Positions 14,814 to 33,868 of a DNA stretch of 35,439 nucleotides are shown here, in pieces (position 1 is the first letter of the stretch; each line of letters opens with the position of its first letter). Source of the stretch: an uncultured Alphaproteobacteria bacterium. GTDB lineage: Bacteria; Pseudomonadota; Alphaproteobacteria; Bin95. Under the pieces are notes generated by a model that saw nothing but the letters and a program-made list of their open reading frames with translations, was not told the origin of the DNA and searched no databases. The DNA is taken from contig CALKDI010000060.1 in NCBI GenBank assembly GCA_938084065.1, forward strand, positions 1 through 35,439, in the 5' to 3' direction. The translations under genes and the position numbers were made by a program.

Positions 14814-14836
14814 CAGCCACTGCTTCTACAAATATT

Positions 14837-14873
14837 ATGCCCCGCACAAACTCGATTTGTGCGGGGCATTTTG
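14837..14873. terminator. Strong, probably bidirectional, intrinsic terminator between convergent rplT and pheA
   Basis: TGCCCCGCACAAA (14838-14850), loop ctcga, TTTGTGCGGGGCA (14856-14868), then TTTTG. A-rich on the other side. Confidence 0.88.
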
Positions 14874-17351: not shown

Positions 17352-18131
17352 ATGCAGCCTGTCTCACCAAACCTGATCGATCTAGCGAAACGGGCGGCTA
17401 ATCTTAGCCGCCCGATTTTGCGTCGGCATTTCCGCACGCCCGTCGACGTCATCCGCAAGGGCGACGAATCGCCAGTCACCCGCGCCGACCGTGAGGCTGA
17501 GACGGCTATCCGACAGCTGCTGTCGCGGGAAGTTCCGGACCACGGCATCATCGGCGAAGAGCACGGCAACGAGCGCACAGATGCCGACTATGTCTGGGTG
17601 CTAGACCCATTGGACGGCACCCGCGCTTTCGTCGTCGGCAAGCCCACTTTCGGGACCCTCATCGCTCTCGCCTACAAAGGCCGCCCCATTCTTGGCGTGA
17701 TCGACATGCCGATTCTGGGGGAGCAATGGATCGGAGCCGCCGGCCACTCCACCACTTTTAACGGCCAGCCGACCAGCACCCGCGACTGCGCGCATCTGTC
17801 AGAGGCCTGGATCAACACCACTTCACCTGAGATGTTTAGCGCTGGCGCAGAGGCCGACGGCTTTGCCCGTGTTCGAGCCGCCTCAGCGGGCTGCAATTAT
17901 GGTGGTGATTGCTATGGCTATGCCCTCATCGCCAATGGCTGCCTCGACCTGACCATCGAAGCCAGCATGCAGACCTATGACTACATGGCCCTAGCGCCGG
18001 TGATTGAGGGCGCTGGCGGTTGCATCACAGACTGGTCCGGCGCACCGCTCACCCTGTCCGGCGATGGCACTGTGCTAGCTAGCGGCGACGCGCGCGTGCA
18101 CGCAGAGGCGGTCTCACTGCTCGCAAGCTGA
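17352..18131 (+). CDS. Inositol monophosphatase-family protein, HisN (histidinol-phosphatase)-like
   Basis: GDESPVTRADREAE, GIIGEEHGNE, WVLDPLDGTRAFVVGKPTFGTLIAL and NYGGDCYGYALIANGCLDLTIEA. In-frame GTG at 17322 is an alternative start. Confidence 0.85.
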   Translation: MQPVSPNLIDLAKRAANLSRPILRRHFRTPVDVIRKGDESPVTRADREAETAIRQLLSREVPDHGIIGEEHGNERTDADYVWVLDPLDGTRAFVVGKPTFGTLIALAYKGRPILGVIDMPILGEQWIGAAGHSTTFNGQPTSTRDCAHLSEAWINTTSPEMFSAGAEADGFARVRAASAGCNYGGDCYGYALIANGCLDLTIEASMQTYDYMALAPVIEGAGGCITDWSGAPLTLSGDGTVLASGDARVHAEAVSLLAS

Positions 18132-26147: not shown

Positions 26148-28486
<2,339 letters not shown>

Positions 28487-28490
28487 TGGC

Positions 28491-28531
28491 CTGATCGACA
28501 CGTTTGCATCCGCAAACGTGTCGTGAATCAG
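28491..28531 (+). terminator. Strong hairpin directly after katG (terminator or mRNA 3'-end structure)
   Basis: CGACACGTTTGC (28496-28507), ATCC, GCAAACGTGTCG (28512-28523): 12 perfect pairs, extended by CTGAT/ATCAG across a 3-nt bulge. No clear T-tract. Confidence 0.6.
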
Positions 28532-28626
28532 CCCACTCTTTCAATATGTTTGTGGTTCGATTCAGCAATCGGATGGGAATCATACGTTTCGATCGAATCA
28601 CTAGGGCCGTTCCCAGTTCTGACCTG

Positions 28627-28706
28627 CGCCTCAGCTGCCAGACCAGTAGCTGAGGCGTAATCAAAGCGATGCTATGGGGTGATCTGCGCAAGCGGGTCAC
28701 CCCATA
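28627..28706 (+). other. Two tandem strong hairpins upstream of the tauD-like gene (possible structured leader or small RNA)
   Basis: CGCCTCAGCT/AGCTGAGGCG (28627-28636/28648-28657). TATGGGGTGATCTGC-GCAA-GCGGGTCACCCCATA (28673-28706) gives 15 pairs with two G:U wobbles and a GNRA loop. Confidence 0.55.
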
Positions 28707-28778
28707 TTCGTGCTTGCAATTGCCGACGTCTGCGCCACCATACCTAGCTGCATCTGCTGCCTGGTAGAGGAAGATCGC

Positions 28779-29843
28779 ATGACCGTCACCCACAACCACC
28801 CCATCACAGAACCCGCCGCGTGGACCGCTACCGACCTGGAGCAGGACCGCCGCTGGGAGATCTCGCTCGCCGCCGAGGAGGTGTCCGACCTTCTGTCTGC
28901 CTGCGCGCAGGTCAACGACTTGCCGCTTACCCACATCACCACCACCAACTTCCCCCTGCCCCACTGCCGGCGCACCATCGCCCGCATCCGTGAGGAGTTG
29001 CGCTCTGGCCGCGGCATGGCGCTGCTGCACGGCTTCCCACTTGAGGGGCAGGAACTAGCTGATGTGGAGCGCATCTATTGGGGGTTCTGCTCACATCTGG
29101 GCATTGGCCTCACCCAGAACAGCGACAGCACGCTGATCCATTACGTGACCGAGGGCCACCTGCGCCCGAACCAGGGCACCAGAGGCGTTGGCAATCCCGG
29201 CAAGGTCTCACTGCATGTGGATCTGGCCGACGTGGTCTCGCTGCTGTGTGTGCGCCAGCCAGACGACTCACCACCCAGCCGCCTTGCAAGTTCCCTCACC
29301 ATTCATAATCTTGTCCGCGAGCGTGCTCCGCACCTGCTGCCCCGGCTCTATGAAGGCTTCGCCTGGGATCGCCAGAATGAGCATGACCCAAGCGAGACGC
29401 CGACTTCTGGTTATCGTGTCCCTGTCTTCAGCGTGGCGGATGGTGTCGTTTCCGGGCGCTACAACCGCAGTTGGATGGCCAAGGCAGCGGATCGCGCCGG
29501 CGGCTTCAGCCAGGAGGAGAAAGAACTGCTGGACCTGTTCGACGAACTGGCCGCCGAATGCATGTTCGAGTTTCCGTTCAACCCTGGCGACATCCAATTC
29601 GCCAACAACTACACCACCCTGCACGGCCGCGCGCCACACGCGCCAGCGGTCTCTGAAGACAAAACCCGCCTGCTGATGCGAATCTGGAACAATATCGATG
29701 ACTTCCGCCCCTATGCCGATGAAGCCATCATCCGCAATGGCATCATCCGCCACGGCCGCCTCGGCTGGACGGCTGACCAGTTGGCGGCAGGACTGGAAGG
29801 CAAGGTCCATGCCCGACGGGAACAGGACGGCGCGCCCGCGTGA
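28779..29843 (+). CDS. TauD/TfdA-family dioxygenase-like protein
   Basis: SLHVDLADVVSLLC (HxD) and ANNYTTLHGRAPH (distal His). Start at MTVTHNH. Length and motif layout like the 1632-2729 protein. Confidence 0.82.
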   Translation: MTVTHNHPITEPAAWTATDLEQDRRWEISLAAEEVSDLLSACAQVNDLPLTHITTTNFPLPHCRRTIARIREELRSGRGMALLHGFPLEGQELADVERIYWGFCSHLGIGLTQNSDSTLIHYVTEGHLRPNQGTRGVGNPGKVSLHVDLADVVSLLCVRQPDDSPPSRLASSLTIHNLVRERAPHLLPRLYEGFAWDRQNEHDPSETPTSGYRVPVFSVADGVVSGRYNRSWMAKAADRAGGFSQEEKELLDLFDELAAECMFEFPFNPGDIQFANNYTTLHGRAPHAPAVSEDKTRLLMRIWNNIDDFRPYADEAIIRNGIIRHGRLGWTADQLAAGLEGKVHARREQDGAPA

Positions 29844-33823: not shown

Positions 33824-33829
33824 GAGACT

Positions 33830-33868
33830 AAAACGCCCCGGCAGCATCATCTGCTTCCGGGGCGTTTT
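33830..33868. terminator. Bidirectional intrinsic terminator between gst and ridA-like gene
   Basis: AAAACGCCCCGG (33830-33841) / CCGGGGCGTTTT (33857-33868), with inner CAG/CTG pairing. Confidence 0.9.

Follow-up and report, generated by a model that had tools for sequence, protein, structure and literature searches.

CTAG is the preferred target of IS630-family MITEs, which are short, non-coding and multi-copy, carry inverted ends, lie at TA or CTAG targets and are moved in trans. REPIN/BIME-1 elements (REP-IHF-REP) consist of two inverted imperfect hairpins around a short linker and are intergenic, and GTAG-tagged REPs are reported to supply TAG stop codons (PMC3733652). CGTC-tagged REPs, dispersed palindromes with a single-hairpin unit and a CGTC end tag, occur in alphaproteobacteria (PMC3733652), and the Bru-RS repeats of Brucella measure 103-105 bp (PMC2267715). 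By description alone, Bru-RS and the RIME repeats of Rhizobium resemble the element reported here in being alphaproteobacterial, ~100-120 bp long, intergenic and palindromic; CGTC-tagged REPs occur in the same bacterial class as our element but differ from its CTAG ends and two hairpins. As a small, non-autonomous mobile repeat with two hairpins, the element is of a known kind, and its family is new or absent from the literature searched. An exact-sequence literature search for it returned no relevant paper.

The copy under study lies in a 35,439-nt stretch of an uncultured alphaproteobacterial genome (the window), in the gap between the catalase-peroxidase gene katG (26258-28486, plus strand; Pfam PF00141, 3.6e-74) and a TauD/TfdA-family dioxygenase gene, tauD (28779-29843, plus strand; PF02668, 2.5e-23), whose likely start is the ATG at 28779 behind AGAGGAAG. 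This adjacency was not seen in relatives, and no checked katG relative has tauD next door. A sequence-only reading had described positions 28487-28778 as highly structured and possibly a single katG-tauD RNA element. Inspection of the sequence found the hairpins and a palindrome where that reading had placed them, and folding of both strands against shuffles bore out the structure: the folding energy of the 292-nt region is -124 kcal/mol for the plus strand (z -6.7, 0/200 shuffles), and the minus strand folds more weakly (-112, z -3.9). The hairpins of the gap are, however, two different things, a copy of a mobile element and ordinary-looking local hairpins such as occur where genes end. The repeat search gave the very result that had been named beforehand as speaking against a single RNA element, in that the first 122 bp are a dispersed mobile repeat. 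The lead towards a novel RNA element thereby proves false and gives way to a testable mobile repeat.

The element spans 28483-28604 (122 bp, CTAG to CTAG), as delimited by its copies, a covariance model (R1) and an alignment (A1). TAG at 28484-28486, within the left CTAG (28483-28486), is the katG stop codon, an arrangement that recurs in other copies and at ssb. The left hairpin (28486-28536), seen in both the fold and the consensus structure, has a GTGG..CCAC foot, a 12-bp upper stem (28496-28507/28512-28523) and an unpaired TGA (28524-28526). The earlier placement of this hairpin after the katG stop was right as to location, but the structure actually starts inside the stop codon. A linker, TCTTTCAATATGTTT (28537-28551), leads to the right hairpin, GTGGTTCGATTCAGC...TTTCGATCGAATCACTAG (28552-28604), which is evident from fold, alignment and consensus structure and whose upper stem is decayed in the window copy. 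The perfect palindrome TTCGATCGAA noted previously at 28588-28597 is present, not as a free feature but within the 3' arm of this fourth hairpin. The right CTAG (28601-28604) is presumably the duplicated target, judging from CTAG at both ends of the collected copies and from the empty-site comparison below. Compared with the IHF consensus, the linker matches at 7/9 positions in the window copy (p 0.11) and at 8/9 in several other genomes, and no such match is present in the g168 genus; the resemblance to an IHF site is suggestive only and may serve as a lead.

When the region was compared by BLAST with the genome it comes from (G000), the search returned an 84% identical copy at C69:755-876 and a partial copy cut at the start of contig C34, and the covariance model added a diverged copy at C34:9588-9676. 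A pattern scan of public genomes yielded at least 69 stretches with half-element matches in alphaproteobacterial MAGs, whose labels include Magnetospira, Defluviicoccus, Rhizobium and Rhodospirillales. At least 45 distinct CTAG-CTAG copies were collected with a search pattern that itself required CTAG at both ends, and 29 of them are exactly 121 bp long. Since only a few candidates in each genome are scored by the genome searches, all copy counts are minimum figures. The copies have in common CTAGTGG..CCACTAG ends, two hairpins and a linker of 14-17 nt, so that the general plan reads CTAG-[hairpin]-linker-[hairpin]-CTAG over 121-122 bp, non-coding and palindromic; CTGG and CTCG occur occasionally as end variants. 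Tandem copies have a single CTAG in common, and decayed half-copies occur. The distribution is patchy: the covariance model gives matches in 20 of the 385 genomes from the class and none in the four sampled genomes of the same family (G001-G004). As in MITEs generally, similar copies are dispersed at unrelated sites and, at 121-122 bp of palindromic sequence, have no coding capacity. In Magnetospira and Rhodospirillales MAGs (loci L097, L089, L070, L107 and L122), the CTAGTGG elements adjoin and chain with palindromes of several further CTAG-bounded families (CTAGTGTCCCGAATCC.., CTAGTGTGGTGGATTC..), one of which, in L107, is built on the two-hairpin plan of the elements.

Pairing is conserved across the 26 aligned copies of A1. 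The two-hairpin structure comprises 41 pairs, of which 20 changed on both sides; 96.3% of cells are paired as compared to 81.4% after shuffling, and the covariation score is 0.395 against 0.143, although the shuffle counts are not probabilities since the sequences are related. Sliding the structure along the alignment lowered pairing to 24-43%. R1 scores the window element at 97.8 bits on the plus and 88.2 bits on the minus strand, and the element folds to a near-equal extent on the two strands (-47.8 and -46.4). Covariation together with symmetric model scores points to palindromic mobile DNA and gives no argument for an RNA product. Covariation is strong among the element copies but holds for both strands, and so does not indicate a katG or tauD RNA. 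A general warning follows, namely that mobile palindromes can pass covariation tests for intergenic hairpins without RNA function. Most elements in A1 pair a GGATG-tipped with a GCTTG-tipped hairpin, in either order and across different host families.

Insertion sites were compared at ssb, recognized in genome G369 (locus L189) by its conserved DDEIPF tail. The gene ends ..ATTCCGTTCTAG-element-CTAG, in the native TTCTAG stop. Among seven congeneric ssb loci, all without the element, six end in TTCTAG with a single CTAG and the seventh (L205) in TTCTAA. The comparison gives an empty site that coincides with the native stop of the gene, in another genus than that of the window katG. With CTAGTGG..CCACTAG inverted ends, an apparent duplication of the target (TA or CTAG) and the single-CTAG empty site at ssb, the element again agrees with MITEs in general. 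Use of the target as a stop codon is recurrent: of 25 frames of at least 300 codons that enter an element, 18 do so in the frame in which the TAG is read as stop, and the other two frames account for 5 and 2 (p 9e-5). The katG gene of the window, with its TAG stop within the left CTAG of the element, is a further case. Over and above its fixed length and its two hairpins with covarying stems, the family offers an empty site and has inserted repeatedly at CTAGs that also serve as stop codons. At L189, the essential ssb gene and the element meet right at the conserved C-terminal tail of the gene.

Two points set the element apart from the IS630-family MITEs, which it otherwise resembles. The body is made of two complete hairpins, as opposed to one terminal inverted repeat, and a search for a parent IS bearing CTAGTGG ends found none: the half-element matches examined with their flanks gave truncated remnants only, with no transposase between matching ends. 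In the closed genome G041, a 1060-bp IS630-family element lies between CTAGs at three sites (L251, L257 and L262), and a ~140-bp two-hairpin MITE (L053, about 1625-1765) has CTAGAGC ends that match these IS630 copies, as compared to the CTAGTGG ends of our element. By analogy, an IS630-type enzyme is our best guess for the mobilisation of CTAGTGG elements. The G041 transposase is split over two frames. No DDE_3 (IS630-type) match was detected in five element-bearing genomes (G093, G194, G369, G395 and G048), and IS630 was rejected as an obligate partner on this result.

Taken together, we consider it very probable that 28483-28604 is a non-autonomous MITE-like element inserted at the katG stop, and that the hairpins downstream of it are local and no part of it. 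We infer that the element, a pair of inverted hairpins joined by a short linker, entered a CTAG that overlaps the stop codon of katG, moving as DNA, at present or in the past, probably by means of a transposase supplied in trans, for which the IS630 family would be the best guess. Insertion would have left CTAG on either side, so that katG would have kept its TAG stop, and would have displaced the gene's own 3' region by about 120 bp downstream. Before insertion, the katG locus would have read ..GGCCTAG followed directly by GGCCGTTCCC. None of the katG relatives checked carries the element, and katG of the closest family member ends in TGA. The hairpins at 28625-28659 and 28673-28706, outside the element, would then form the 3' end of the katG transcript, either as a terminator or as an RNase barrier.

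Both of these hairpins are unique and candidates for a katG 3'-end structure, the second of them also for a terminator. Hairpin 3 (28673-28706, plus strand) is as previously described, with a 15-bp stem, a GCAA loop and two G.U pairs on the plus strand. For hairpin 2, the perfect 10-bp stem reported earlier is real but forms part of a 14-bp stem with a 7-nt loop and two G.U pairs on the plus strand (28625-28659). When the 35-kb window was scanned in 36-nt pieces, hairpin 3 was the most stable (-27.7) and hairpin 2 the third most stable (-25.6); ten dinucleotide-Markov windows contained, in total, one 36-nt hairpin at or below -25. Positions 28605-28712 fold at -58.1 on the plus as compared to -46.9 on the minus strand. 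The wobble pairs had been taken to imply a plus-strand RNA, and indeed all four G.U pairs of the two hairpins favour that strand, but with only four such changes the bias is weak and would arise by chance in 1 of 16 cases. A hairpin close behind the stop, often accompanied by a T-run, is found in many katG relatives; together with the plus-strand G.U pairs, this makes the suggestion of a katG 3' structure a possible one for hairpins 2 and 3. A role as terminator is weakened by the lack of a T-run after either hairpin, since an intrinsic terminator combines a G+C-rich stem, which both hairpins have, with a T-run. Neither a promoter-like site nor a U-tract terminator was found in the region. The likeliest and simplest reading of hairpins 2 and 3 is that they are the displaced 3' end or terminator of katG, and we give it about an even chance.

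Alternatively, hairpins 2 and 3 could be remnants of other low-copy palindromic repeats, of which related genomes hold several CTAG-bounded families. We regard this as unlikely, because the hairpins have no second copy in their own genome, 28605-28778 has no relatives beyond chance in 385 genomes, and no CTAG or inverted ends surround them. Four genomes gave short matches to 28605-28778 (20-23 bp, E 0.002-0.009), about as many as chance predicts over 385 genomes.

As to the element itself, a bolder and likewise doubtful proposal is that a widespread alphaproteobacterial family of paired hairpins homes to CTAG stops and acts as portable gene-end modules; if true, the gene would gain from such a module a hairpin 3' end that works in both directions, possibly together with an IHF bend, and would come to no harm. 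A related idea, to which we assign a rather low probability, is that selection maintains the element because it serves katG and similar genes as a portable terminator in both directions or as a stabiliser of mRNA ends. Its enrichment at gene ends would fit, but the same bias is expected from insertion at rare, non-disruptive CTAG sites. Hairpins of near-equal stability on both strands and compensatory changes would fit as well, yet transposition alone can maintain a palindrome, and decayed half-copies and missing T-runs argue against a selected function.

A REPIN/BIME-type element mobilised by a REP-associated tyrosine transposase (RAYT) acting on single-stranded hairpins would account for the intergenic setting and for a short linker between imperfect inverted hairpins that have unpaired bases and a GTGG foot. 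The linker is IHF-like in several genomes, as in E. coli BIME-1 (PMC2817692), and TAG stops may be supplied, as reported for GTAG REPs (PMC3733652). Our element differs in its CTAG at both ends, its fixed length of 121 bp and several hosts without Y1/RAYT. CTAG at both ends and a single CTAG at the empty site suggest target duplication, which is not expected for the REPIN/BIME class. No Y1 transposase (PF01797) was found in G000, the closed genome G041, G048 or G093, which weakens this reading to the point of being improbable; RAYT/Y1 as mobiliser was rejected on its absence from these key hosts.

The analysis mostly fails to support the RNA-element reading, and a regulatory RNA (leader, riboswitch or small RNA) from 28600-28710 controlling the dioxygenase gene is highly unlikely: the plus-strand fold is very stable, all four wobbles favour that strand and tauD lies directly downstream, but the proposed Rfam search gave no family in the window above the gathering threshold and only implausible sub-threshold matches at a permissive one, 28605-28778 lacks relatives beyond chance in 385 genomes, no promoter-like site was found, katG-tauD linkage is not seen in relatives, and the nearest tauD homologues (54% identity) have no such hairpins upstream.

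Other top-ranking hairpins of the window also lie at gene ends, after a GST gene (33831) and after a minus-strand gene (14881). The one at 33829-33866, directly after the GST gene, is strong, has a TTTT tail and makes a good intrinsic terminator; the bases that follow it are TTCGTGCTTAGC, similar to the TTCGTGCTTGC that follows hairpin 3. Strong hairpins at 14835-14870 and 17385-17420 lie in gaps at gene ends and are probably terminators.
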